Below, piece after piece: positions 1,058-40,023 of a stretch of 64,000 bases of DNA (positions are counted from its first letter, which is position 1; each line of letters begins with the position of its first letter). Below the pieces are notes generated by a model. It worked only from the letters and a program-made list of their open reading frames with translations, made no database searches and was not told the DNA's origin. Both the position numbers and the translations under genes were made by a program. Origin of the DNA: Spiroplasma corruscae (lineage in GTDB: Bacteria; Bacillota_I; Bacilli_A; Mycoplasmatales; Mycoplasmataceae); contig NZ_CP022535.1 in assembly GCF_002237575.1 (NCBI RefSeq), positions 434,001 through 498,000 of the forward strand. The letters are read 5' to 3'.

Positions 1058-1696
1058 GTGGAAAAAGTAACTATTATATCAATTGCTGGTGGTAGTGCTA
1101 GTGGTAAAACAACATTTGCTCAAACATTAAGTGATAAAATTTTTGAAAATCACTCTGTATCACATCTGTCAATGGATAACTATTATAAAGATTTTAGTAA
1201 TCTTAGTTTTGAGGAAAGACAAAGCTTAAATTTTGATCACCCTAATTCTTTAGATATAGACTTGATTTGCCAACATTTAGATGATTTAAAAAATTTTAAA
1301 TCAATAAAAGTACCAATTTATAATTTCACAACTCATAGTCAATCAGGGGAGTATAAAATAATTGAACCATCAGAAGTAATTATTTTAGATGGTATATTGG
1401 CGCTTCAAATTGAAGAAGTAAGAAAAAGAAGTAATATAAAAATTTTTATTAGAACTGATGATGATATTAGATTCATAAGAAGGTTATTAAGAGATGTTGG
1501 TGATAGAGGACGTAAATTAGAGGATGTTGTTCATCAATATTTAACAACAGTTAGACCAATGTATAAATTCTTTGTTGAACCGTCAATTGAGCATGCTGAT
1601 ATAATTGTTCCTTATTATGAAGGTAACACCATAGCAATGGATTTAGTTGCTGCAAAAATTAATACATTATTATCTAAAAACATTAAAACTAGTTAA
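1058..1696 (+). CDS. udk: Uridine kinase
   Basis: Phosphorylates uridine and cytidine to UMP and CMP in pyrimidine salvage, in the cytosol. The 212 residues begin with a P-loop GGSASGKT (residues 11-18), followed by the LSMDNYYKD nucleoside-site motif, the FDHPNSLD motif and the RRLLRDVGDRGR lid segment, all typical of bacterial Udk of about 210 residues. The start is GTG at 1058, five bases after a GAGG ribosome site; no ATG fits as well. The gene ends inside its own terminator hairpin. No tryptophan occurs, so the reading is code-independent. Confidence 0.95.
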   Translation: MEKVTIISIAGGSASGKTTFAQTLSDKIFENHSVSHLSMDNYYKDFSNLSFEERQSLNFDHPNSLDIDLICQHLDDLKNFKSIKVPIYNFTTHSQSGEYKIIEPSEVIILDGILALQIEEVRKRSNIKIFIRTDDDIRFIRRLLRDVGDRGRKLEDVVHQYLTTVRPMYKFFVEPSIEHADIIVPYYEGNTIAMDLVAAKINTLLSKNIKTS

Positions 1697-1714
1697 TTAA
1701 AACTAGTTTTTTTT
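1685..1714 (+). terminator. Rho-independent terminator of udk
   Basis: A 9-bp perfect stem (AAAACTAGT / ACTAGTTTT) with an 8-base loop is followed by a run of T. The left arm overlaps the last codons of udk. Confidence 0.85.
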
Positions 1715-1858
1715 ATTAAAATTAATTTCCTATAAATAAATTATTTATTTTAATAATATAAAAGATAGATAAATTAATGACATAGTTAGCTTATCTTTAC
1801 ATAAAAACATTATTAATTTAATTTTAGTAATAATAAATATAAGAAAAGAGCAAATAAA

Positions 1859-4192
1859 ATGAGAAAAATATTAAATATATTATCATCTATAATAATTTTT
1901 GCTATGCCTTTTACGTCTGCTGTATCTTGTGGTAAAAATAAAAACTCAAATAAGAATGATTTAAATTTAACAAGCATTCAAAGAGAAATGGTTGAAGGTG
2001 CAGAATTCATGTCTAGATTAATTATTTCAAGTAGACATGAGAATATAAACATAAATTTAAACGAAATGTTATCAATATATTTAACGCCAATACCAACTTC
2101 ATTGATGATTCCAACTTCATTTAAATACAATAATAATAATGTTAATTTTAGTACTAAAATAGATAAGTATAGGAATTACTTAGCACCAAGTATACAAAAA
2201 TTAAATAAAACTGGTTCTGCAGGAACATATGCTAGTTATGTAATGGGAATGTATGATGATAGTTTTTATACAAATTTTTTAAAAAACAATTACTTTGAAG
2301 ATTCGTTTAATTTGAATGGTGACATTGGTTTTAATAAACCTGGTGATAAAAATGAGATGGGGTATTTTTCAGGTTTAGACAAAAATTTAAAATTATCAAA
2401 TGAAGAAAGTAGAAGAGATTTATCTTGGGGGATTCAAGACACAGGGCCACTAACTAATTATTTATTAGATTTAGATTATGATGGATCATATCCAGGTGAT
2501 TATAATGGCACTAATGGGTTAAGTACATTTTTCCATGGAAAACCAGATATTAATGGTGGTGGTACAAATTCATCAGGCTATCTTCATTATAATTCAGTTA
2601 TTTCAAAAGGAAAAGGATATTGAAATGGAAATGATATCTACAAAGATATTAATGATAAGTTAAAAAGTGGTAAATACGAAAGTGCTAAAACTTCAAAATT
2701 CCAAAGTGATAACTTTTCTTCTTATCCAAAAATTAATAATATTGAATTTAACAAAAATGGAATTGATTTAATGAACACAGCAAGTAATTTAAATATTGAT
2801 GGTTATATAAATAATTTTGTATCCTCAATCGAAGGTGTAAGTAGTACTGATTTTGGTGCTAGTATGTTATTAAATATTGTAAATATTTTGACACCAATCT
2901 TAACAAGTGATATTGATTGAGTTAATACAAGCATACAAATGATTGGAATCAGCCTAATTTATAATATTCAAAATGCTATTAATAAAATTCAAGAAAGTGA
3001 TGATTTAACAGCATTTTTAATAAACAATGGATTTAATCAAGAAATACTGAATAATAAAACTAATAAGCGTCCTCAAGTAAAAGCTAATGACATAACTAAA
3101 CCTAATGTTGAAACTGCTAAAATAACAAGAATATATAATGAACAAGAAAATGACATTATTAAAGACCAATTAGAAAACCTAAAACAAGTAGGTATTTTTA
3201 TCGATGAACTAGTTAAATTTAGCGATAATTTAAAAGATAATAATATTAAAAAAGAGTTTATTGAAAAGTTCTTTAAAAATAAAAGAACACCTTTTTGAGA
3301 TTCTTATGAAGTAATAATAAAACCTAATGTAATGGGTATTGGAGCAAAAGGTTTAACACAAGAAGGCTGAGATATGTTATTAGATAATGGTGGTGAAAGA
3401 ATTATAAACTTATTGAGCCTTTTATCAGACTCTTATAAAGAGTTATCTAAAAAAGAGAAAAGTAAACAATTACTAGAGATTGAAAATAGTGATATATATA
3501 AAAATAAATCATTACAACAATTATCAAAATCTGAATTTACAAAACTTAGAAGTGTTCTTGGTTATAGTATCGCTGAAAACAACTTTGTAGAAGGGTCAAT
3601 TTTAGATAGCTATTATAATCTTATAACCAATAAAAATATAAGAGGAGTTTCTGAGTTTGATTTTATGCTAGATATACTTAAAGATGGATTAAATTATGAC
3701 ATGGAAAATGTATATAAAGATTCATTACAATATATTTATGATGACAATTACTGGAATATTTCCAACATAAAAATTAATAGCACAGACTCAAGCAAAATAA
3801 ATGGTGAATTAGAATTTGAATTAAATTATACAGGAGTGGGTGATATAAGTTCAAACGCAGATCAGCAACTTAAAAAAGTTGATGTTCCTATGAATTTTAA
3901 TCCATATCAGACATTAGTTAAGCATCAAATGAATGACCCAAATGTTAATAAAATTAAGAATCTAATTGATATGGATCGTACATCTGGTGTAGTCCTTGGT
4001 AAGGACCAATTAAAACTAACTCAAAAAGATTTATTGGAATATGATGGTACAGCTATGAATTATAAAAATGTAAATCACAATTATAAAGTGGTATGAAAAA
4101 ATTTAAGTAATGACATAAATAATCCATATTGAGTTGTAACGGGTATAAAATCATTTAATGAAAATGGTCAAGAGTTTTTCAATATTTACTAA
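1859..4192 (+). CDS. Long lipoprotein, paralogue 1 (unknown function)
   Basis: A 777-residue exported protein. The leader MRKILNILSSIIIFAMPF ends in lipobox SAVSC (Cys23), so it should be diacylated and anchored on the outer face of the membrane. Several in-frame TGA codons read as Trp join what would otherwise be separate ORFs. It is clearly paralogous to the protein at 4990-7308: both share EGAEFMSR or KGAEFMSR, SSRHEN, a GGTNSSGY motif, QYIYDDNYW and a C-terminus ending FNIY or YNIY. No known domain was recognised. The pair probably arose by duplication with a membrane-protein gene between. Function unknown; surface adhesion or nutrient capture would be guesses. Confidence 0.85.
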
Positions 4193-4209
4193 TTATAATA
4201 AAGTAATTA

Positions 4210-4238
4210 TTGAATAATTTTTATTTTTTTTATATAAT
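4210..4238 (+). promoter_or_regulatory. Promoter predicting a leaderless mRNA
   Basis: TTGAAT at 4210-4215, a 17-base spacer and TATAAT at 4233-4238. The expected +1, seven bases after the last base of the -10 box, is 4245, the A of the downstream ATG. No Shine-Dalgarno sequence lies before that ATG. Confidence 0.6.
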
Positions 4239-4244
4239 TAAGAA

Positions 4245-4946
4245 ATGAATTTAAACACTTTTATTAATTATAAAAAAAAGTTAATAACTTTTTTTATAGT
4301 TGCTTTTTTAATTGCTAACTTTTTAATATTTATTTTAACAAATACATCTATAATAAGAATTTTTATTTTTATTGATTCAATAACAATGATTTTACATTTA
4401 CTTTACTTTCTGTTTATTATTAATAATAATATTAAAATAAGTAAATACGAGATTAAAAAGCATATTGAATCAAATAATTTAATAATTATAAATTATCTAT
4501 TAATACTATTAGTAACATTATTATTTATTTATTATGAAATAAATGGCATTAATGGTGTTTTTAACTATAATTTATCGATTAAATATATTTTTTCCAGCAC
4601 AAATATATTTGCGAATAATTATTCAAAAGTACTTTATTTAGGTTTTTTATTATTCTGAACTGTTTTTATGATTGCATTAGTAGTAATTTTTATAAATATA
4701 TATTATTTAATTAAATTATTTAACGTATTTACAAGTTTATCGCTTTATACTTCACTAAATAATATTAATTATGAAATTAAAGTATTTTTTGCTATCTTCA
4801 TATCTGCATACAAATTGATAAATATTAGTTTTAATAGTGTATATCAACTAATATATAAATTTTTCGTAAAAATATTTATAGAAAAAGTTTTTTTTAGATT
4901 GGTTTATTTTAATGTACATTATATTTTGATAGATATTAGTGATTAA
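4245..4946 (+). CDS. Hypothetical integral membrane protein
   Basis: 233 residues with about five or six hydrophobic segments, very rich in Ile, Leu, Phe and Asn. One TGA (near 4659) must be read as Trp, giving GFLLFWTVFMIALVVIF. No domain recognised. It sits between two paralogous long lipoprotein genes on the same strand, 52 bases after the first and 43 bases before the second, so it may assist or co-localise with them. The start lacks a ribosome site but lies exactly where a consensus promoter would start transcription, suggesting leaderless expression. Confidence 0.7.
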
Positions 4947-4989
4947 TAAAGAATTAAATTAAAAATAGTTTAAAATAGGAGGAAAAACT

Positions 4990-7308
4990 ATGAAAAAATT
5001 AATGAATTCTTTATTAGTGATAACAATTTTAAGTACACCTTTATCAACTATAATTTCTTGTGATCCTAGCTCTACTGAGGATAATAACAACAAAAACAAT
5101 GATGACTATATGACTAATATGCAAGATGAAATGCTAAAAGGTGCAGAATTTATGTCAAGAATTGTTTTATCAAGTAGGCATGAAAACTTAAATTTCAACC
5201 TTAATGAAATTTTATCAATGTATTTAACACCATTACCAGTGATGTTAAATATGCCAGTATCATACAAATATAATGATCAAAATATTAATTTTTTAAGTTA
5301 TATAAGCAAGTTCAGAGATGTAATGAGTCCTTCAATAAATAAAATAAATGGGGATAATTATTCTGGAATGTATGCCAGTTATATAATGGGAATGTATGAT
5401 GATAATTTTTATAATGATTTTGTAAAAAATGAGTATTTTGAAGATTCTTTTAATGAAAAAGGTGACACAGGATTTAATAAAAAGGATGATAAAAATGAAT
5501 TAGGTATTTTAGCAGGGTTAAATAAAAAGTTAAACTTATCAACTGATGAAAATAGAAGAAATTTATCGTGAGGTATCCAAGATACAGGAGCTTTAACAAA
5601 CTATTTATTGAGTAAAGGTTATGATGGTGCTTATCCAAGTGGTACTTCGGGCATTTCTAATACATATTCAAGTGCAAATGTTACTACTGGAGGTACAAAT
5701 AGCTCTGGTTATTCATTTTATAACTCAGTTTTATCAACTGGAAAACCTAATAGAGTATCAATAAGTGATTACAGTAAAAAGACGGTTAATGATAAATCGA
5801 AGGGTTTTTCGTTTGAACCAATGAAAAAAACAGAGTCAACCAATATACTAGAAGATTATTCATCAAAGCTAAATAATATGAATTTTAATGGTGTTGGATC
5901 ATTATTAACTAATACTGCTGGTAGTTTAAATTTAAATGGATATATTAATAGTTTTTCATCATTAAAAGATAGTATTGGTGAGAGTGATTTTGGAGTCGAT
6001 GTTTTACTTCAAGTTGCAAACATAATAACACCATTGCTTGCTGATAATAGTGAGAAAGTAAATTTGTTAATGCAGTCTACTGGTTTTAGCTTGTTATATA
6101 ATGTTCAAAATGTTATAAATACAATTCAAAATAATACAAAACTTTGTACTTATTTAAAAGGAAAGGGATTTAATGAAGATATTTTAAATAATAAATTAGA
6201 TAAAAAAGAAATAGTTAACCCTATATCTCAATATATGAAACCAGATGCTTCTAAAGTTAGAGTGTCTAGATTCTATAATAAAGAAAATGGTGATAAAAAT
6301 GACCCTATAAGTACAATGAAAATGACTGAGTCTTTTTTACGCGAACTTAAAAAATGTCATGAAAATCTTGATGATAATGAAAAAATATTTTTTACTAAAA
6401 GTTTATTTATCAATCCTAACTCACCATTTTATGAATCTTATAAATCAATAATAAGTAATTCATTAATCGGTGGAATTGAAGTAGAGGGTTGGACGAATTT
6501 AATTGGTAATGATGGTTCTAGCGGTATGAACCTACTTAGTTTGGTGGCTGACTCATATAAGGAATTATCCAAAAATGAAACCAAGGATCTTATTTTAGAA
6601 ATCGAAAAAGAATATAGTGGTAAAACACTTAAATCTATTACAAGATCTGAAAAACTTAAGTTATTTAAGAAATTAGGTTATGACATTTCAAGCAAAAAAT
6701 ATACAGAAGATTCATTTTTAAGCAACTATTATAAGTTTATGACTGATAAAAAAATTAGTGGTGTAAATGAATTAAATGGATTCTTTGATAAACTAAGAGA
6801 TGGTGTGAACAATTCAATGAAAAATGTTCACGAAAAAGCTCTTCAATATATTTATGATGACAAGTATTGAAATACTCAGGATAAAAAAATTAATGTAACA
6901 GATCCATCTGAATTAAATGGAGAAATTTCATTTGTTCTTGATTATTCTGGTAATGGTGATAAGGAATCAAATGCCGATCAACAAACTGAAAAAGTTAATG
7001 TACCAAAGAATTTTAACCCATATCAAACATTGGTTAATTATCAAGATAATTATGCTAAAAGTGAATCTTTAAAATCAAAAATTGACTTAACAAGAATATC
7101 TGGTGTAGTACTTGGTAAAGAACAACTAAATTTATCAGATGAAGAATTAATAAGTTATGACGGAAAAGGTGTTAAATATGATAAAGTTAACCATAAATAT
7201 AAAATAATATGAAAAAATGTAAGTAATGACGTCAATAAACCTTATTGAGTAATAACAGGTATTCAATCATTTAATAGTGATAATGAAGAATTTTATAATA
7301 TTTATTAA
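4990..7308 (+). CDS. Long lipoprotein, paralogue 2 (unknown function)
   Basis: 772 residues, with leader MKKLMNSLLVITILSTPLS and lipobox TIISC (Cys24). The start has a strong AGGAGG site. It aligns along its whole length with the lipoprotein at 1859-4192: KGAEFMSRIVLSSRHEN, YASYIMGMYDDNFY, GGTNSSGYSFYNSV, a RISGVVLGKEQL segment and the shared C-terminal PYWVITGIQSFN. TGA is Trp near 5569, 6868, 7210 and 7246. The mature part begins with an Asn/Asp-rich linker typical of surface-exposed mollicute lipoproteins. No enzymatic motif was seen. It is followed directly by a strong terminator. Confidence 0.85.
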
Positions 7309-7332
7309 ATATTGACTATGTCAATATTTTTT
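7307..7332 (+). terminator. Rho-independent terminator after lipoprotein 2
   Basis: A 10-bp stem (AAATATTGAC / GTCAATATTT) with a 3-base loop, then T residues. It begins within the stop codon. Confidence 0.85.
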
Positions 7333-7394
7333 ATATTTATATCAAAAAAATAATTATTTCTTTTTCTATGTTTTATTGGTAAAATACATTTATA

Positions 7395-7422
7395 TTGACA
7401 AAAATATTTTTTATATTAATAT
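7395..7422 (+). promoter_or_regulatory. Likely promoter of the parE-parC operon
   Basis: A consensus TTGACA at 7395-7400 is followed after 16 bases by TAATAT (7417-7422). Several overlapping TATA-like hexamers make the exact -10 uncertain. The roughly 60-base leader contains a weak AATTAAAT/ATTTAATT inverted repeat. Confidence 0.5.
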
Positions 7423-7485
7423 ATATAAGACTAATATTAATTAAATAGGTTTTTATTTAATTATTAAAATGATAGGTGGGGCAAA

Positions 7486-9414
7486 ATGTCAAATGAAAAT
7501 AATTTAAATTATACCGAAGATAGTATTCAGGTTTTAGAAGGTTTAGATGCGGTCAGAAAAAGGCCGGGTATGTACATCGGTTCTACCGATGTACGTGGAC
7601 TTCATCACTTGGTATGAGAAATAGTAGATAATTCAATTGACGAATCTTTAGCAGGGGCTTGTACTGAGATTAATGTATCAATTGAAAAAGATGGTTCAAT
7701 TACTGTAAAAGATAATGGTAGAGGAGTTCCTATAGGTAAATATAAGGGATCAAAAAAATCAACACCTGAAATAATATTTTCTGTTTTACACGCAGGTGGT
7801 AAGTTTGGTGGAGATGGATATAAAACATCTGGTGGATTACATGGTGTTGGTTCATCTGTTGTTAATGCTCTTTCAAGTAAATTTAAAGTTACAATTTATA
7901 GAGATAATAAGATTTCAACTATTAAGTTTGCTAATGGTGGAAAATTAACTCAACCACTAAAAGAAACAGGGTCAACAAAACAAACTGGAACAATAGTTAA
8001 CTTTTTACCTGACGAAACAATCTTTTCATCAACAAAGTTCTCTTTTTCAACTATTTCAGAACGTTTAAGAGAGTCAGCATTATTAAACTCAGGTCTTAAA
8101 ATTACATTAAAAGATAATAGAAGTGATAAATATGTTGAGTATCTGTTTGAAAATGGTTTAATAGAATTTGTTAATGAACTTAAAGGAACACAAAAAGCAT
8201 TAACTGCACCCATTATTATAAAAGGTAACAATTCTAATATTGATGTTGAAATTGCGATGTTATATACAGATGAGTTCTCAGAAACTGTTTTAGGTTTTGC
8301 AAATAATGTTAAAACTAGTGAAGGTGGAACTCATGTTATTGGTTTCAGATCTGGGTTAGTTAAGGTATTAAATGAATATGGTAAAAACCAAGGAATATTA
8401 AAAGAAAGAGACAAAAAACTTGATGCATCTGATATAAAAGAAGGTTTAATAGCTGTTGTAACTGTAAAAATACCTGAAGACTTAATTCAATATGAAGGAC
8501 AGACAAAAGGTAAATTAGGTACAGCAGAAGCTAAAACTGTTTGTGAAAAAATAACTGAAACTAGTGTAAATTTTTGATTACAAGAAAATAAAACATTAGC
8601 AATTTCATTAATTGAAAAAGCATTATTAGCAAGAAGAGCAAAAGAAGAGGCAAGAAAAGCAAGACAAGCAGTTAGAGATCAAAAAAATAAATCAAAATCA
8701 AGAACAATGCTTGGTAAATTAACACCTGCACAAGGTAAAGATAAAGAGCTTAATGAATTATTCCTAGTAGAGGGTGACTCAGCGGGTGGTAGCGCTAAAT
8801 CAGGAAGAGATAGAAAATTCCAAGCAATATTACCATTGAAGGGTAAGGTTATTAATGCAGAAAAAACAAAGTTAATTGACCTACTAAAAAATGAAGAGAT
8901 AGTCACAATTATGAATGCAATAGGTGCTGGTGTTGGTAGTGAATTTGATGTTAATGATATCAATTATGGTAAAATTATTATAATGACTGACGCAGATACA
9001 GATGGTGCGCATATACAAACATTATTGCTTACATTTTTCTATAGATATATGAAAGATTTAATAATTAATAAGAAAGTATACATCGCCTTACCACCTTTAT
9101 TTAAAGTTACCAGTTCTAACAAAAAAGACTTCAAATATCTTTGAACTGAGGATGAATTAGTTTCACATATGAAAAAATCTAAAACTAAATGTGAAATTCA
9201 AAGATACAAAGGTCTTGGTGAAATGAATGCAACTCAATTATGAGAAACTACAATGGACCCAGATGAAAGAAAATTAATCCTTGTAAAAATTGATGATGGT
9301 TTAGCAGCTGAAAATTCATTTAGAACATTAATGGGTGACAACTCAGATAAAAGAAAAGAATGAATTGAAGAAAATGTTAAATTTACATTAGAAGAAAACA
9401 TAGAGTTCTTATAG
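7486..9414 (+). CDS. parE: DNA topoisomerase IV subunit B
   Basis: The ATPase subunit of topoisomerase IV, which decatenates chromosomes with ParC. In the 642 residues: GHKL ATPase motifs [22 protein letters not shown] and [14 protein letters not shown]; the transducer; then a TOPRIM domain with EGDSAGG (about 429-435) and DADTDGAH; and the C-terminal [10 protein letters not shown]. The length fits ParE/GyrB of the short type. ParE rather than GyrB is inferred from the ParC-like gene downstream in the same operon. Trp codons are TGA (near 7615, 8575, 9142). The start ATG follows AGGTGGGG. Confidence 0.93.
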
Positions 9415-9434
9415 TATTATAAGCGATTAGAATA

Positions 9435-10421
9435 GTGGTGAGTAAAGTGGCTAAAGAATTTCAATATAACAAATTAGTAAATGTTGTATTAAAAAAAATA
9501 AATGAATATAACAAGATAAACTCAGATATTAAAAGATACAATATTTTTAATAGTTTTAGTATTTCTTATGAAATAGAAGATACTGCGCTTTACTTTGAAA
9601 TGCATAATACTGATGATACTGAAGAAATGTCTTTGACTTCATTATCTACAGAGCAGTCTATTAGAATCGATATTGATAAATTAAATGAAGTTAATTGACT
9701 GATGAAAACTCTTAATAGATTTATTGAAAAAGCAAATGAATCGTTAACTAAAGCTAGAGAATTATCAAAACCACATGTAGGAATTTTAATATACGATGAA
9801 TTTACAGATTCTTATTACTTAAATCCGTCAAGTGGACCGATATTACTTAGAACAAGAGAAATTGAAAAGGAAATTGCAGCCACTAGATTTGATATATTCT
9901 CAATTTTTATTAATTTACGTTCCGCATTAATTGGTAATGATAATCTCGCTGAAATAATTGGCGCATCACCAACAAAAGTCTTGGAAAGAATAAGGTCATC
10001 AGTTGAATTTATAAAAAGTTGTGAAACAAAGTTAGTTAAAATAGAGGGTATACCAAGGTATATTGTAAATTTTAATGAATTTAATAAAATAATTACTTAC
10101 TCTACATTTGCAACAAATGGTTTTGGTAAAAATATTGTTACTCCCAAAAGAATTAATGAAAAAGTAATAACCGCTTCAATTGATAGACTTAGGGAATTGG
10201 ACAAAGTCTATGCTCAAGTAAGAAAAGACGAAGAAGTTTCAAAAAATATGTTAGACTTAGCAAGAAGTCTAGTAGCGAAAAATAATCCTAAATTGTTTAC
10301 TCTTGAAGATTCAACCAAATATTGAGTTTTAACAAAAGAAGGAAGAACAACTATCAAAAACCTTAATATACTAGACTTTTTAGATAATGATATGAGTGAA
10401 GTTGATTTTTACTTAAATTAG
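9435..10421 (+). CDS. Conserved-looking protein of unknown function between parE and parC
   Basis: About 328 residues, soluble, with no recognised domain. The N-terminal third is mixed; the centre ([18 protein letters not shown], then [16 protein letters not shown]) and C-terminal [17 protein letters not shown] are predicted helical. It lies 20 bases after parE and 13 bases before parC on the same strand, so it is almost certainly co-transcribed with topoisomerase IV. The start is uncertain: GTG at 9435, 9438 or 9447 are all possible and none has a clear ribosome site. Two TGA codons are Trp. A link to chromosome segregation is only inferred from position. Confidence 0.75.
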
Positions 10422-10434
10422 GAGGAGTATTTTA

Positions 10435-13098
10435 ATGTCAGATAACAACAAGAACGGTATAATTGATTATTCTCTTGAAGATTTGATGAGCGAGAGATTT
10501 GGACGTTATGCAAAATACATAATTCAAGAAAGAGCATTACCAGATGTTAGAGATGGGTTAAAGCCAGTTCAAAGACGTATTTTATTTACAATGAATGAAA
10601 TTAATCTAACTCATGATAAGGCATATAAAAAATCCGCTCGTATCGTTGGAGATGTAATTGGTAAATATCATCCACACGGTGATACATCAGTTTATGAAGC
10701 TTTAGTTAGAATGTCTCAATCGTGAAAACTTAATATGCCTCTTGTAGATATGCAAGGAAACAATGGTTCTATTGATGGTGATGGAGCTGCTGCTATGCGT
10801 TATACAGAATCAAGATTGTCAAAAATAACTAGTGTGTTACTTGAGGATTTACAAAAAAATACTGTATTGTTTGCTCCAAACTACGATGATTCAGAAAAAG
10901 AACCAACAGTTTTACCGGGTTATTTTCCAAACATTTTGATTAATGGTTCTACAGGTATTGCAGCGGGTTATGCAACAAATATGCCTCCTCATAATTTAGG
11001 AGAAATAATTGATGCAACAATATTATTGATCAAAAAACCAAAAGCAACATTAAGTGATATTACAAAAATTGTACAAGGACCAGATTTCCCAACTGGTGGT
11101 ATAGCTATGGGTAAAGAAGGAATTGAAAGCGCATTTACAACCGGTAAAGGTAGAGTAATACTTCAATCAAGAATGGTTGCAGAAGACGATAAAATTGTAA
11201 TTGATCAAATACCATATGAAGTTGTAAAACAAGACTTAGTTCGAAAAATTGGTGAAGTAGTTGAAGCAAACCCTCAGCTTGATGTAAAAGAAGTTAGAGA
11301 TGAAACAGATAGAACTGGATTAAGAATTGTAATCGAATTAAATCCTGATTCTGATTATGATTTTATTAGAAAATTTTTATTAAAAAACACATCTTTACAA
11401 GTATCTTATAATTATAATAATGTTGTTATTGTTGATAAACAACCTAAACAACTTGGTATTATTGAAATAATAAAAGCCTATATAGGTCACTACAAAGATG
11501 TTTTCTTAAAGAAAACAAAATTTGATTTAGATAAATCAGAAAAAAGACTAGAAATTATTGAAGGTCTTGTTAAAGCTATTTCAGTTTTAGACGAAGTAAT
11601 CCAAATTATTAGAAATTCTGCAAATAGAGGTGATGCGATAACAAACTTAATTAACGCATTTGAATTTACAGAAAATCAAGCTATTGCTATAGTTGATTTA
11701 AGATTATATAGATTAACCTCAACAGATATTGTAAAATTAAATGAAGAAAAAGATTTTCTAACTGGTTTAATTGAAAAACTTAAATCAATAATCAATGATC
11801 AATCAGTACTTAATAATGAAATTATAAGTAAGTTAAATGAATTTAAGAGAGAGTTTAGTATTCCTAGAAGAACTAAGATTATTGATGAAATTGAAAATAT
11901 CGATGTTGAAATTAAAAAAACAATAGTTGAAAAAGATTATACTGTTTGAGTTTCACAAGATGGTTATTTAAAAGCGATTGATGATGCTCATTTAGGTAAG
12001 TTTCCAATATCTGAGTTTAAAAGAAAACCCAATGACATTTGAATCGCTCAATTCCCAGCATCAAGTTTAAATTATATTATTTTAGTTTCAAGTGCAGGGA
12101 CATATTTCTCGATTCCAGTATATAAAATTAATCCAAGTAAGTGAAAAGAAATTGGTATGCATTTAAATGAAGTTGCAACTATATCTGGATCTGAAAAAAT
12201 ATTAGCGGCATTCGTTGTTAAAAAGTTTGAAAATGCAAAACAAGAAATTTTATTAGCTACAAGAAAAGGTATGATTAAAAGAACGCCTATTGAGGACTTA
12301 GAAACTAAGATGTTCTCAAAAGCATTTAGGATTATGAAAATGCAAGAAGGTGACGAATTAGTATCAGCTTCATTAGTTACTTCAAAAACTAGATATGTGA
12401 CTATGCTAACAAAAAACGGTTTTGCAGTGAGATATGATATAAATGAGATACCTAGTGCAGGACAAAATGCAAAAGGTGTAAAATCAACTGTTGTTAAAGA
12501 TGATTATATAATTGCTGGTAAGGCTTTTGATAAACAAGGCGATATATTAGTATTAACTAATAAAGGTAATATTAAAAAAGTTAAACAAGAATTAGTACCT
12601 CTTATGGCAAGACCTAAACGTGGTGTGAGATTATACCCATGAAATAAAAAGAGAGATGAATTTGCAACATTCTTATATAACGTTCAAGACAAAGATACAT
12701 TAAATATTCTAGATGATGAAGATAATTTAACTCAAATTAATGTAAAAACATTTAAGTATGCTGATCTTGAAGATGTTCCAGAAGACTTGGATATGACTAA
12801 TATTGTAACAACAACTTTAGAAAAATCATTTATTGTTAAAAACAATGATATCCCAATTCCTCCTAAATCTGGAGATGACGATAATGGTGGTAATAATTCT
12901 GGAGATAGTGGAAACATAAAGCCATTAAAATCTAAACAAGATATTACCAAAAAAGAAAATATAGTTCATAAAAATAATGAAAAAATAATAAAAGTTATTA
13001 ATAAACCAAGTGATTCAAATAATAATAAACAATCTGAAAATAAAAGCGAAGATTTAAATACAGAAGAATTAAAAATCGATATTGATGATCTGTTATAA
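10435..13098 (+). CDS. parC: DNA topoisomerase IV subunit A
   Basis: The DNA-cleaving subunit of topoisomerase IV. It has the winged-helix segment [26 protein letters not shown] and the catalytic tyrosine in [12 protein letters not shown] (Tyr123), then the tower and coiled-coil region and a C-terminal beta-pinwheel (repeats such as [14 protein letters not shown] and [12 protein letters not shown]). At 887 residues it is somewhat long for the family: the last 100 or so residues are a low-complexity Asp/Asn/Lys tail ([18 protein letters not shown]), probably disordered. The start ATG follows GGAGGAG. Trp codons are TGA. Last gene of the parE operon. Confidence 0.93.
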
Positions 13099-13181
13099 TG
13101 CTTTTATTTTTTTTACACATATTATTTATTTTTTAACGAATATATAATTATAAATATATTAAAAATATAAAGGAGATTATT

Positions 13182-14078
13182 ATGATAATCCAAGTAATAG
13201 GACAACCGTTTTCTGGGAAAACTTCTCTTGCAAAATACATTTCAAAAAAATTAAACATTAAATACTTTTGTGCAGAGGACATGTATTACAACGATTATCA
13301 AAAAGTTACTGATGATTATGCTGATTTAATTTTAAATAATAATGATTTTATTATTGATGGTTCAATAAGTTGGTTTTATAAAAGTGCTTTTTTTAAAAGA
13401 GATATTTTAATATGAGTTGAAACTGATGATAATGAAAGAATAGAAAGAATAAATAATCTAGAGATGAAAATAGATTGATTAAAGAAAATCGATTATAATA
13501 AGTATTATAAATATAATGATGAATATTTTGAACTTTCTAGAAATTATCAAGAGAAACAAAAACTTTTAAATCTACTATTTATGGAGTTTGAAATCGCGGA
13601 CTCTAAAAAAATTATCATTGACGGTGCAATATCAAATAAAGAACAATTTAAAATAATAATAGATTTAATATTAGAAAAAAAGAAAAAAAATTATTTAAAA
13701 GGTAATATTGATTTATTTAAAGTATACAAAAAAGAAGTTGGTATGAGTATAAAAAATATTAAACAAAGTTTAAAAATAGTAAAAAGTACTAATATTAAAC
13801 AAACAAAGTTGTTTGAAAAACAATATATAAAATATGAAAAACTAATCTCAAATGACAAATATATTTCTTATAAAAATAATCTAAAAAATAGTTTTAGAAA
13901 TTCTAAAAAAAATATAAAAAATATTTATAACGTATCAAACATAAGTTTACAACCCGATAAAAAATTAGTAAAAGATTTATCGAGTTTAACTAATTATAAA
14001 ACTGCAATTGAAACTTCTAAGTTTATAAAAAACATTATTAAGATATTAGATATAGAAAAGCACAAACTAAAGAGATAA
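13182..14078 (+). CDS. P-loop NTPase, kinase-like, with basic coiled-coil tail
   Basis: 298 residues. The N-terminus MIIQVIGQPFSGKTSLAKYI is a Walker A motif (GQPFSGKT, residues 7-14). It is followed by YFCAEDMYYNDY, the layout of small nucleoside or adenylate-type kinases, and DFIIDGSISWFYKS, which resembles the region where uridine or dephospho-CoA kinases bind substrate. From about residue 160 the protein becomes very Lys-rich and probably helical, unlike a normal kinase. Start ATG with AAGGAG. It lies 7 bases upstream of recD2, likely co-transcribed. Substrate unknown; it could be a degenerate nucleotide kinase. Confidence 0.7.
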
Positions 14079-14085
14079 GGAATTT

Positions 14086-16305
14086 ATGAAAAAGTTTAAA
14101 GGAAAAATTTATAAATATATTTTTAGTTCAGAATCAGGTTTTGGTGTTGCTCTTTTTAGTTTATTTGAAAATCCCAAAAAAATAATTAAGATAATTGGTG
14201 ATATTTCTCATATGAAAAAAGATTATCTATATGAAATAAGTGTTCAACAGTTCAATGATAGCTCAAGAAATGAAGTAAACTTTAAAGTAATAAATATTAT
14301 TACAGTTAAGGATTTTGAAAATGACCCTGACTCATTAATAAAGTATTTAAGTTCTTCTCTATTCCCAACAATTGGAAAAGGTCTTGCAACTAATTTAGTA
14401 AATCATTTTAAAACAGATGTAATTAATAAAATTTTATTAAACAAAGATAGTTTAATTGATATTGATGGAATGAATAGTGTAAAAGCAAAAATATTGTATG
14501 ATACTTTATTTGAATTAAAAAATAGTTTTATAGATTTATTTATAGAAAAAAATTTAAAATTAGATTTTTTTTATAAGCTAAATAAAAATTTCAATAACTA
14601 TAAAGATATTGAAATGGTTTTAAAAAATGACTTCTATAAATTTGCTTATGAAAATAATTTAACTCCTTTTAGTGAAGTCGATAAAGTAGCACTTGCTTTT
14701 GGTGAAGAGCTATTAAGCGAAAAAAGAATATCTTGATTAGTTCATAGTGTTGTTAAAAATATGTTGTTCAATAGTGGTGATACATACACAGATATAGAAA
14801 AAATAAAGAGTGTATTATACAAAGAAAATTTATTAGATTATACTGTTCCTTTTCAAGAAATAATAAATAAATTAGTATATGCAAAAAATGAAACTATTTT
14901 ATATTTCAAAGATCAAAAAATTTATACAAAGGATAGTTACGAAGAAGAGCAATGCATATCAGAAAAACTTATAAATATTTTAAAACTTAAGAAAGACAAT
15001 GAATTCGATGAAGATTATGTATTAGATAAAATAAAAATTATAGAAGATGAATTTAAGATAATAAAAAAAATAGATAATTTTAAATTTAATAAAGAACAAT
15101 TAAACTCATTATTAAGTTTTGTAAATAATAATATTTTAATAATAACAGGTGGTCCGGGAACTGGTAAAACAACTTTGATTCATGCCATAGTTAGGTTATA
15201 TGAAATTTTATATAATAAAAATAAAAATGATTATTCTATATTAGCACCAACAGGTAGAGCTGCATCAAGAATAAAAGAAGATTCGAATTCTTTGTATACG
15301 TCAACAATACATAGATATTTAAAATATACTGGTAATAATATGTTTGATGTCAATGAAGGAAATCCAATTTATACAAATTTAATAGTAATAGATGAATCAT
15401 CAATATTAGGAAATCAATTATTTTCAAAACTTTTAAAAGGTGTAAAAGGTATTGAAAAGTTAGTTCTAATTGGAGATATAAATCAATTACCAAGTGTTGA
15501 ATATGGTAACTTATATGAAGATCTTATTAAAAGTAAAAAATTTAAAACAGAATACCTAGTTGCTAATAACAGACAATCAAGTGAAAATGATATTCCAGTA
15601 TTTGCAAATTCAGTTTGAAATGGTGTAGAAGATTTAAGTTTAAAAGGATATAAAAATGTAATTTTTGATTATGATGAAGACGAAAATAAATTATTAGAAA
15701 AACTAAAAGATTATTATATTAAATATTGCCCTGATAAACTTGAAGACTCAATTACAGGAATACAAGTTATTGCACCAATGTATAAAAATAACTTAGGAAT
15801 TAATAATTTAAATAATTATATACAAAGTTTTAAAAACAATTCTTCTGGTGTAAAAGTTAAAAAGGGAAATTCTCAATTTAAAAATAATGATAAGGTAATC
15901 TTTAATGAAAATAATATTAAATTAATGTTATTTAATGGAGATGTTGGTTATATTAAATCAATAACTAAGGTAGAAGAAAAGATTAATATATCACTTGATT
16001 TTTGTTTAAGAGATATTAATGTCTCAGTGGATTTAATAAAAAATCTTGACTTAAGTTATGCATGTTCAATCCATAAAACTCAGGGTAGTGAATATGATAA
16101 TGTAATACTTGTTTTGGATGCAAGTAATTGATCGACTTTAAGTTTCGTTGATAAAAGAATGATTTATACAGCTATTACTAGAGCTAAAAAAAATCTTGTA
16201 ATATTATCAAATGAAAAAACTTTTATTAAATGTGCTAGCTTCTTAAGGGAATCAAGAAAAACAACTCTTATAGAATACATTAATTACAAATTAGAAAATT
16301 TTTAA
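14086..16305 (+). CDS. recD2: ATP-dependent DNA helicase, RecD2/TraA type
   Basis: A superfamily 1B 5'-3' DNA helicase. The 739 residues fit RecD2. An N-terminal OB-like/HhH region (FPTIGKGLATNLVNHF, then IDIDGMNSVKAKIL) precedes Walker A TGGPGTGKTTL (about residues 354-364), motif Ia APTGRAASRI, Walker B VIDESSI, motif III GDINQLPSVEYG, motif V YACSIHKTQGSEYD and motif VI YTAITRAKKNL. RecD2 lacks RecBC partners and acts in DNA repair and mismatch processing. TGA codons near 14734, 15616 and 16129 are Trp. It starts with an AAGGAA site just after the P-loop gene. Confidence 0.92.
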
Positions 16306-35526: not shown

Positions 35527-35541
35527 GTTGGTTAATCCAAC
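35527..35541 (+). promoter_or_regulatory. 5'-terminal mRNA hairpin of spiralin-like gene 1
   Basis: GTTGG-TTAAT-CCAAC. It starts one base after the predicted +1 and ends three bases before the GAGGAGG ribosome site. The same stem with another loop is found at 38226-38240 before the paralogue. Confidence 0.55.
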
Positions 35542-35557: not shown

Positions 35558-36433
35558 ATGAAAAAATTATTAGGTATATTAGCAGCTACGGGGTTAGTTG
35601 CAACCACTGGAGCAACAGTGGTATCGTGTGGGGACAAAGCTTCAGCATTTAGTGAAGTTAAAGATTTATCAATGAAAGTTGGAGATGCTGATAAAGTAGT
35701 TGAAGTTACTGTAAGTAACCCAGTTAAAGATACTGCATTTAGTGCAACTTCTGCAACTGTTGCAGCTGCAACAGTAAGTGTTGCACCTGCTAAAGATGAT
35801 GGTACAGGTAAATTTAAAGTAACTGTAAAAGCAGTTGCTGAAGGTACTTCAGACATTACTCTAAAATATGGAGATAGTTTAACTAAGACATTCAAAGTTG
35901 CTGTATCAGCTGCAGAAGCTGCTGCTAAAAAAGATTTAAGTACTACAATTTCAACAAAAGCATTAGGTGAATTTAAAGGTGCTGGAGATAATCCAACATT
36001 AGAAGAATTGGTTGCTCAAGTTAATTCAAAAAATAGTGATTTAGGTTTAGCTGCTAGTGATGTTGAACTAGATGGATCAGCTACAACATCAGCAGCAAAA
36101 CTTAAAGCAAAATCAGAATCAGAAAAATTTACTGGTAGTGTTGATTTAACATATTCATATTCAAAAAAAGAAGCTGTTGCTAAAAAAGATTTAAGTACAA
36201 TTACATTAGCATTAGGTGCATTTCAAGGTGCAGGAGATAATCCAATAATTGGTGAATTGGTTGATCAAGTTAATGCTGTAAATGAGGGTTTAGGTTTATC
36301 TGTAAATGATGTTCAACTAAATGGATCTCCTACAACATCAGCAGCAAAACTTGATGCAAAAGCATTATCAGAAAAATTTACTGGTAGTGCTTCATTAACA
36401 TATACATATACAAAAAAAGAAGCTTCAAAATAA
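35558..36433 (+). CDS. Spiralin-like surface lipoprotein 1
   Basis: 291 residues. Leader MKKLLGILAATGLVATTGAT, lipobox TVVSC (Cys24). The mature protein starts with an Ig-like (Big_2-type) domain of about 90 residues (SMKVGDADKVVEVTV, then KDDGTGKFKVTVKAV), followed by two diverged repeats of about 80 residues at roughly 128-205 and 213-291, each with LG-x-F-x-GAGDNP, a SDVELDGS or NDVQLNGS block and KFTGS-x-x-LTY. These repeats resemble the repeated domain of spiralin and related lipoproteins. No Trp and no Cys after the lipobox. Strong promoter, 5' hairpin, GAGGAGG site and a 20-bp terminator all suggest high expression. Confidence 0.85.
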   Translation: MKKLLGILAATGLVATTGATVVSCGDKASAFSEVKDLSMKVGDADKVVEVTVSNPVKDTAFSATSATVAAATVSVAPAKDDGTGKFKVTVKAVAEGTSDITLKYGDSLTKTFKVAVSAAEAAAKKDLSTTISTKALGEFKGAGDNPTLEELVAQVNSKNSDLGLAASDVELDGSATTSAAKLKAKSESEKFTGSVDLTYSYSKKEAVAKKDLSTITLALGAFQGAGDNPIIGELVDQVNAVNEGLGLSVNDVQLNGSPTTSAAKLDAKALSEKFTGSASLTYTYTKKEASK

Positions 36434-37458: not shown

Positions 37459-37520
37459 TTTGTATTTATTGTAATATCAATAATATAGATCATAACTTTA
37501 GTGATATAAATCATATATTA

Positions 37521-37676
37521 ATGAACTTATGAGAAGTTAGTTTATTAGTTAAAGTTAATGGTGGTTATTTATCTAAGGATAAAATAATTAGCATAGCTTT
37601 TGAAAATGTTGCAGTTATAAAAGTATGTGTATTAATTGCTAAAGATGATGTTACAGGAAATTCAAAGCAACTTTAA
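37521..37676 (+). pseudogene. Relic of a spiralin-like lipoprotein (Ig-like domain)
   Basis: A short open frame (51 codons, TGA as Trp) reads EVSLLVKVNGG, then IAFENVAVIKVCVLIAKDDVTGNSK. It lines up with the Ig-like domain of the lipoprotein at 35558 (EVKDLSMKVGD, then ATVAAATVSVAPAKDDGTGKFK). There is no leader or start signal. A normal terminator hairpin lies at 37967, so the region 37459-37992 looks like a decayed full-length paralogue. The rest of the 800-base gap to 38255 shows no other frame I can support except the next gene's promoter. Confidence 0.5.
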
Positions 37677-37966
37677 CACTATTAAATAATAACCAATAAA
37701 TGATATTTATAATTAAAATACTGATGTTGCTAAATAAGATGTAAGGAACTAATTTTAGTTTAATTTCAACTATCACAACATTATTACTTTAATAATTGTT
37801 AATAAACATGTTGAAAAGGTTACTAGCTTAGTTTTAGTAGTGGTTATAATACCAAATGTTAACATTTAACCATTATTGAAGTAACATTTGATTTATTAAC
37901 AAAGTGGTTGAAAACAATATTAAAAACTAAAGTAGAAAATAATAATATCTTATTATATAAATGTTG

Positions 37967-37992: not shown

Positions 37993-38212
37993 GTAAAGTA
38001 TTTAAAAAATTTAACATAAAATTTAATTAATATTTTGTAATCTAGTAGCAATATATTTTCATATTTATATGATTATCATTATTTTATTAAAATTAATTAG
38101 TTTTTAACATATGTATCAATATGAAATTTATTTTACTTCATAAAACTAATTTCAAAATGTATTTATTGATCAAAAACACCATAAAAATAATGAAATTATT
38201 TATTGTAAAGTT

Positions 38213-38240
38213 TATAATTTACTTAGTTGGAAATTCCAAC
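38213..38240 (+). promoter_or_regulatory. -10 box and 5'-terminal hairpin of spiralin-like gene 2
   Basis: TATAAT at 38213-38218 (the -35 is poor) and, at 38226-38240, GTTGG-AAATT-CCAAC beginning one base after the predicted start. The AAGTTTATAATT context and the spacing match the element before 35558. Confidence 0.5.
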
Positions 38241-38255: not shown

Positions 38256-38861
38256 ATGAAAAAATTATTAGGAATATTAGCAGCTACAGGGTTAGTTGCA
38301 ACCACAGGAGCAACAGTTGTTTCTTGTGGTAATGATACAAAAGAAACTACAAAAACAGATTTAAGTAAAATATCTACAAAAGAATTAGGTGATATTAGTG
38401 GAGAAGGAATAACACCATCACTTAGTGATTTAGTTAAAGCTATTAATTTAAAAAATGATAAATTAAGTTTAACTGATAATGATGTTACTTTAAATGAAGG
38501 TGCTACTACTGAAAAAGCTACTATAACAGCTAAAGAAGAATCTACTAAATTTACAGGTTCAGTTGAAGTAACATATAAATATACAAAATCAGAAGCTGTA
38601 GAAAAAAAAGACTTAAAAGATTTAGAAGTAAAAGAATTAGGTGATATTAGTGGAGAAGGAGTAACACCATCACTTAGTGATTTAGTTAAAGCTATTAATT
38701 TAAAAAATGATAAATTAAGTTTAACTGATAATGATGTTACTTTAAATGAAGGTGCTACTACTGAAAAAGCTACTATAACAGCTAAAGAAGAATCTACTAA
38801 ATTTACAGGTTCAGTTGAAGTAACATATAAATATACAAAATCAGATACAGTAGAAAAATAA
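38256..38861 (+). CDS. Spiralin-like surface lipoprotein 2 with near-identical tandem domain
   Basis: 201 residues. The leader MKKLLGILAATGLVATTGAT and lipobox TVVSC are the same as in the gene at 35558. The mature protein is just two spiralin-type repeats of 84 residues, each with KELGDISGEG, TPSLSDLVKAI, TDNDVTLNEG and KFTGSVEVTYKYTKS. The two DNA copies (38378-38593 and 38630-38845) are identical over 216 bases except one base. It lacks the Ig-like domain of its paralogue. No Trp. Ribosome site AAAGGGG. It probably shows size variation by repeat number. Confidence 0.85.
   Translation: MKKLLGILAATGLVATTGATVVSCGNDTKETTKTDLSKISTKELGDISGEGITPSLSDLVKAINLKNDKLSLTDNDVTLNEGATTEKATITAKEESTKFTGSVEVTYKYTKSEAVEKKDLKDLEVKELGDISGEGVTPSLSDLVKAINLKNDKLSLTDNDVTLNEGATTEKATITAKEESTKFTGSVEVTYKYTKSDTVEK
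38378..38593 (+). repeat. Tandem repeat unit 1 (period 252 bp)
   Basis: 216-bp copy in spiralin-like gene 2. Differs from unit 2 at one base, changing Ile (GAATAAC) to Val (GAGTAAC). Confidence 0.95.
38630..38845 (+). repeat. Tandem repeat unit 2 (period 252 bp)
   Basis: Second copy; the unit length of 252 bp is exactly 84 codons, so gain or loss of a unit keeps the frame. Confidence 0.95.
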
Positions 38862-38910
38862 GACTAAAAATATTTAGATAATAGAATTAAATAATATTAT
38901 TAAAAATTAT

Positions 38911-38936
38911 CCACTTTAATAAAAGTGGTTTTTTTT
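38911..38936 (+). terminator. Terminator of spiralin-like gene 2
   Basis: Stem CCACTTT / AAAGTGG, loop AATA, then eight T. Confidence 0.85.
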
Positions 38937-39053: not shown

Positions 39054-39503
39054 ATGAAAAAAATATTAACATTTTTAGCTGCAACAGGGATTGTAGCTTC
39101 GACAGCGTCAACAGTAGTGTCATGTGATGATGATTTTGGATATAAAGTTGATTCAAATTTAGTGGTCAGTTCAAAGGATGAACTAATTGGATATGATGAT
39201 CAAATTGCACTATTTTTTATTATACCAAATAGCTTATACTTACAAAAACTATTAACTTTTGAAGTTAAAGCAACTATGTATGTAAATGATTTATCCACTA
39301 CTGCTGTCAATTATTTTAAATTAGAAAATATAAGTAAAAATAATTCAGATGATCACATATATTCAGCTAATTTAGTTTTAAACTTTTCATCAAATGATGA
39401 AAAACCATCTAATGAAACAAAATATGAATTAGTATTTAACATAAAGGATGATACAACAACATTTGGAAATTTCACAATTACTTATAAAGACAAAACAGTA
39501 TAA
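39054..39503 (+). CDS. Small lipoprotein, unknown function
   Basis: 149 residues with leader MKKILTFLAATGIVASTAST and lipobox TVVSC. The leader is of the same Vmc-like type as the spiralin-like genes. The mature part is short, without repeats, and looks beta-rich (TFEVKATMYVND, NLVLNFSSND, NFTITYKDKT). Ribosome site AGGGGG, preceded by TATAAT at 39019-39024. It is followed after 52 bases by a related lipoprotein with similar layout, so the two probably form one transcript. No Trp. Confidence 0.8.
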   Translation: MKKILTFLAATGIVASTASTVVSCDDDFGYKVDSNLVVSSKDELIGYDDQIALFFIIPNSLYLQKLLTFEVKATMYVNDLSTTAVNYFKLENISKNNSDDHIYSANLVLNFSSNDEKPSNETKYELVFNIKDDTTTFGNFTITYKDKTV

Positions 39504-39555: not shown

Positions 39556-40023
39556 ATGAAAAGATTTTTAGTAATATTATCTGGTTTATCAATTGTTACA
39601 ACTACCATTTCAACAGTAGTATCATGTGGTGATGAAATTAGTAATACATTTCATACTTATAATAACATGGCATTTACTGATAAAAATAATTTAGTAGGTC
39701 TAGATGATAGAATAAATGTATTATTAGTTCTAGGAAACGATTATGTATTAGGTAAAGATATTAATATAGATTACGTATTAAGAGTTTTTGAAGAGAATAG
39801 TGGTTGATGAGTTACAAGTACTAAATTATTTAATTTCACAAATCCAACTAAAAAAGAAAAAAACAATAGGTTATACACATTAAGCTTTAGTATTAATGAA
39901 GAAGAGTTTAAAAATTATAAATTTGATGATAGTAAAAAATTTAAGATTACTTTTTCAGTTAAAGGTTTATTTGAATTTAATGATTTTGAAACAGGTGTCA
40001 TTAATTGTAAATTAAATATATAA
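39556..40023 (+). CDS. Small lipoprotein, paralogue of the preceding gene
   Basis: 155 residues, leader MKRFLVILSGLSIVTTTIST, lipobox TVVSC. It has the same general layout as the 149-residue lipoprotein before it: an initial NLVGLDDRI block comparable with ELIGYDDQI, a hydrophobic LLVL or LFFI strand and alternating beta-like stretches. Two adjacent TGA codons near 39806 are Trp-Trp. I chose ATG 39556, eight bases from GGAGG; ATG 39550 is only two bases from it. Ends at a palindromic terminator. Confidence 0.8.

Follow-up and report, generated by a model that had tools for sequence, protein, structure and literature searches.

The stretch of Spiroplasma corruscae DNA analysed here (the window, 64,000 nucleotides with a G+C content of 24.6%, in a genome of about 1.2 Mb) carries a gene encoding a lipoprotein that consists of a signal peptide followed by two almost identical domain units. 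The gene and its parts are as follows.

38256-38861, forward strand: coding sequence of a 201-amino-acid lipoprotein with two spiralin-type domains, read in the mollicute code (table 4)
38256-38327, forward strand: signal peptide and lipobox with Cys24 (NCBIfam NF038029, LP_plasma, residues 1-24)
38358-38609, forward strand: unit 1, 84 codons, spiralin-type domain and linker
38610-38858, forward strand: unit 2, 83 codons followed by the stop codon
38378-38593, forward strand: near-identical block, copy 1, 215/216 identical to copy 2
38630-38845, forward strand: near-identical block, copy 2, 215/216 identical to copy 1
38859-38861, forward strand: stop codon TAA, aligned with AAA (Lys) of the linker between units 1 and 2 in the comparison at offset 252
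38862-38899, forward strand: decayed start of a third unit, 3' of the stop codon, by local alignment with one 2-nt gap

An in-frame ATG further upstream, at 38121, was disfavoured as the start because the signal peptide begins at 38256. The lipoprotein signal model NF038029 matched the 201-residue protein with 37.0 bits (cut-off 24). The Spiralin family model PF05215, which was found in 48 of 60 genomes of the family, reached 28.3 bits over two stretches of the whole protein (Pfam gathering score 25), and single units scored 19.9 and 20.5 bits, both under that cut-off. An independent profile was made from 11 other spiralin domains, with the gene under study left out; searched against 191 window ORFs and the same number of shuffled ORFs, it matched the 38256-38861 ORF and no other (E 6e-7). 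From the PF05215 and profile matches, each repeat unit therefore equals a single spiralin-type domain together with its linker. The designation as a surface lipoprotein in the initial annotation is thus supported by the lipobox signal peptide and the two spiralin-type domains. The spiralin equivalog NF038030 gave no full-length match, scoring 33.7 bits against a cut-off of 140 over residues 1-41 only, and the product is not spiralin proper.

An AlphaFold2 model of the two units, computed from a two-sequence alignment, had a mean pLDDT of 85.3 and a pTM of 0.51, each unit being predicted as a strand, a helix and three strands. No fold was assigned to it, because the best Foldseek match in the PDB, at 2e-3, did not reach the E threshold of 0.001. 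A search of solved structures by sequence gave no convincing match.

When the gene was compared with itself at an offset of 252, both the coordinates and the reading frame of the previously described in-frame tandem repeat (252 bp, 84 codons) were borne out, as was the single-base difference between the two 216-bp blocks. This sole mismatch (A at 38409, G at 38661) exchanges an Ile for a Val codon. Tandem Repeats Finder placed the repeat at 38378-38889 (period 252, 96% matches, score 950), the top of its 14 rows in the window, and a chance origin is excluded. To the left of 38378 the identity falls immediately to 12/24. To the right of the block, similarity extends through the stop codon, with 27/33 between 38594-38626 and 38846-38878, and further on only 8 of 34 positions match (38627-38660). 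Altogether, the copies show ten differences over one full period, one of them inside the block. The extent first given to the repeat, 38378-38845, therefore holds for the blocks but not for its right-hand end, since similarity continues past 38845.

As DNA, the unit matched only itself and its neighbour in the whole genome, the remaining matches being 16-46 bases long, and a conversion donor elsewhere in the genome was accordingly rejected. In a tree of 239 spiralin-type domains, the two units formed a sister pair with a support of 0.998. The recent expansion or gene conversion proposed earlier is supported by this pairing, by the one difference in 216 bp and by the lack of another genomic copy.

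The sequence behind the stop codon was also found to resemble the repeat. A local alignment of 38862-38899 to the linker and the first part of unit 2 scored 23.0; no dinucleotide shuffle out of 5000 (maximum 21.5) and no AT-rich control stretch out of 9339 from the window (maximum 21.0) scored as high. When the same test was applied to 31 genes with a C-terminal last unit, the 38256-38861 gene ranked first (z 5.6, runner-up z 2.9). Behind the other 30 C-terminal multi-unit genes no clear remnant was seen, the next best score being equalled or exceeded in 13 of 1000 shuffles. Positions 38862-38899 are the decayed beginning of a third unit, and on a plain reading of the sequence the array was once longer and then cut short. 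With the similarity running through the stop codon into this remnant, more than one round of turnover of the array is probable. The remnant takes up most of the gap between the stop codon and a terminator-like hairpin, which is listed below with the other features surrounding the gene.

35558-36433, forward strand: paralogous lipoprotein gene, with an extra N-terminal Ig-like region and two spiralin-type units
37497-37676, forward strand: decayed copy of the N-terminal region of the paralogue (35648-35828), by alignment
38190-38218, forward strand: promoter-like site, ATGAAA, 17 nt, TATAAT, by consensus only
38226-38240, forward strand: small leader hairpin, GTTGG..CCAAC, also present at the paralogue (35527-35541)
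38911-38928, forward strand: terminator-like hairpin and T run, fold z -3.2

The paralogue was not found by the 11-domain profile among the window ORFs and joined the family only on iterative widening. Its N-terminal Ig-like match is weak (17.0 bits, under the cut-off of 27). Its two units share 83% of their nucleotides and 69% of their residues, a moderate divergence, so that their earlier description as strongly diverged does not hold. The units of the 38256-38861 gene are 61-64% identical to those of the paralogue in ungapped comparison. Between the two genes, 37497-37676 aligned to 35648-35828 with a score of 65.5, the maximum being 26.5 in 500 shuffles and 30.5 in 179 window controls; a protein-level search of this stretch with the paralogue gave no match. 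It is read as the remains of another gene copy, and the locus displays both gene birth and gene death. A stretch just downstream of it, 37703-37942, is suggestive of a spiralin unit remnant when compared with the last unit of the paralogue, a score that 9 of 500 shuffles also reached.

The leader hairpin lies just 5' of the ribosome-binding site in both spiralin-type genes. The two genes also have a promoter-like stretch in common. The hairpin pattern, with TATAAT and the CCAACGA context, occurs just twice genome-wide, once at each of these genes, and for this reason it was rejected as a genome-wide element and taken as inherited by gene duplication. Promoter-like sites are not enriched here (29, against a mean of 33 in shuffles), and the region holds 4 terminator-like sites, where shuffles average 0.5. 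No RNA family matched in the window. Further downstream and in the same orientation lie two small lipoprotein-like genes; the one at 39054-39503 passed the signal model (33.4 against 24 bits) and the one at 39556-40023 missed it (18.4 against 24 bits), and neither has a Pfam match. In the genome as a whole, the MreB family has eight matches, seven of them strong; the presence of several MreB genes alongside spiralin domains is indicative of Spiroplasma or a close relative.

The distribution of the differences bears on the order of events. The 216 bp of the block contain only one, and the 33 bp that follow contain six (Fisher p 2e-5). This clustering outside the block disfavours a single duplication that aged evenly; it points to homogenisation after an older duplication and is a moderate argument for a second event, although faster change of the C-terminal (3') end under relaxed selection can also produce it. 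Within the block, none of the 30 informative fourfold sites differs, an outcome with a probability of 0.006 at the 16% divergence of the remnant and of 0.04 at 10%. This test is softened because third positions use almost no G or C (GC3 of the gene 2%, nearly all A or T), and the argument for a second event from synonymous rates is weakened by the codon bias. Recent homogenisation or re-duplication of the core is nonetheless likely. Since the RecA core is intact in the genome, recombination between the units is possible, with replication slippage as another possible route.

Taken together, these features make it quite probable that the repeat units of this spiralin-type lipoprotein gene recombined with one another, or slipped during replication, and that its array was remodelled in this way. 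An older array would have had at least one more unit start. Its last unit would have been lost by a nonsense change followed by decay, as the alignment of the linker AAA with the stop codon TAA suggests. A more recent event, whether unequal crossing-over, gene conversion or slippage, would then have duplicated the 216-bp core or homogenised its copies. As a whole domain would be moved in frame in this way, the length of the protein would change and the anchor would be kept.

A simpler history, in which the 252-bp unit of a one-domain gene was duplicated once and recently, with no prior array, and the tail then diverged fast, would account for the similarity at offset 252 spanning about 249 of the 252 positions of one period. 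We consider it unlikely, as the match of the sequence behind the stop codon to the linker and the first part of unit 2 extends past one period when the 2-nt gap is allowed, as a one-domain ancestor with this stop must have lost stop codons in the linker, and as the differences are strongly clustered. Still less probable is an old duplication whose near-identity was held by strong purifying selection; the 2% GC3 does leave little room for silent change, but the unchanged fourfold sites, the single difference in all 216 bases and the mere 83% identity between the units of the neighbouring paralogue speak against it. An assembly artefact, in which a single copy was doubled or a longer array was compressed to two units, is very unlikely, given that ordinary paired reads can cope with a repeat of 252 bp, that ten bases differ between the copies over one period, one of them in the block, and that the linker is unlike both ends.

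In-frame copies of nearly identical domains are found repeatedly in this protein family. The survey covered 40 regions of 18 genomes together with the window (429,538 bases), and yielded 247 domain matches. Neighbouring domain pairs were at least 93% identical at the DNA level in 16 of 124 cases, distributed over 9 genes of 7 genomes, a recurrence that is not an unbiased rate as the regions were picked for spiralin hits and some of them for visible arrays. One gene carries five near-identical 294-bp units (L094), another carries three units of 258 bp (L089), and a second case in the same genome as the 38256-38861 gene reaches 97% (L099). Tandem Repeats Finder gave 19 rows with a period of at least 120, corresponding to 17 distinct arrays, and all 17 periods were divisible by three; these arrays share one domain family and are not fully independent. 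In the domain tree, which comprised 239 of the 247 domains with the shorter ones omitted, 21 of the 83 closest pairs lay within the same gene and 12 of those were neighbours. The 38256-38861 case is thus ordinary for the spiralin-type family, but well preserved.

Two further arrays were observed in the surveyed regions. At about 2422-2946 of L117 (genome G018), a 96% identical tandem spiralin array has one unit with an in-frame TAA and is apparently decaying. In L092 (genome G058), positions 1526-15045 hold three tandem arrays of great length within 19 kb; their periods are 531, 276 and 276 bp, and the number of units goes up to ten. Contig scans for relatives in named genomes gave none in the first and four loci in the second, with only signal-region or 29% matches. 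A literature search of limited depth, in sources available in part, found no report of near-identical tandem spiralin units.

Judging by homology only, the 38256-38861 product is likely to act as a lipid-anchored surface coat protein or adhesin, as spiralin does in S. citri. The size variants that had been predicted for it are plausible by analogy with the arrays of the family, which hold up to five near-identical units, and "antigen" is likewise a label by analogy. A changed number of units would alter the length of the protein and its number of binding faces. More tentatively, the spiralin-type genes of the Spiroplasmataceae could be domain-level repeat-number loci, in which whole domains of 80-100 residues are gained, lost and homogenised in frame within single genes. 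This would be rapid enough for the arrays of close strains to differ, unit fossils would lie behind stop codons, and the coat would vary in length and valency and not by on/off switching. According to the accessible parts of two reports (PMC4804543, PMC5874924), spiralin-type lipoproteins are a main contact surface of spiroplasmas with their insect hosts. Repeated in-frame copying of a domain, together with a fossil behind the stop codon, offers a testable picture of coat remodelling in a wall-less cell with a small genome.

The same two reports, in the portions available, describe spiralin of S. citri as a lectin: it binds glycoproteins of the vector, and efficient transmission by the insect depends on it (PMC4804543; PMC5874924). 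The 38256-38861 protein shares a lipid anchor and the spiralin domain with this major surface lipoprotein (PF05215). Unlike it, it has two almost identical units, and NF038030 matches its signal region only; lectin activity is reported, in the available part of PMC4804543, for S. citri spiralin only. Spiroplasma poulsonii has spiralins A, B and C, an example of how genes for spiralin-domain proteins can make up a diverging set inside one genome, and the accessible sections of that report describe no tandem near-identical units in them (PMC5874924). The multiple banded antigen (MBA) of Ureaplasma is a mollicute lipoprotein with a conserved N-terminal anchor in which the number of tandem units varies, presumably by slipped-strand mutagenesis; as far as the available text of that source goes, its units are short (12, 18 and 21 bp), occur in tens of copies and are accompanied by recombinase sites (PMC3511179). 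In the 38256-38861 gene, unlike in MBA, the unit is a whole 252-bp domain present in two copies. What the gene shares with MBA-like, size-variable mollicute lipoproteins is the near-identical in-frame tandem units, and this likeness would be a parallel in behaviour.
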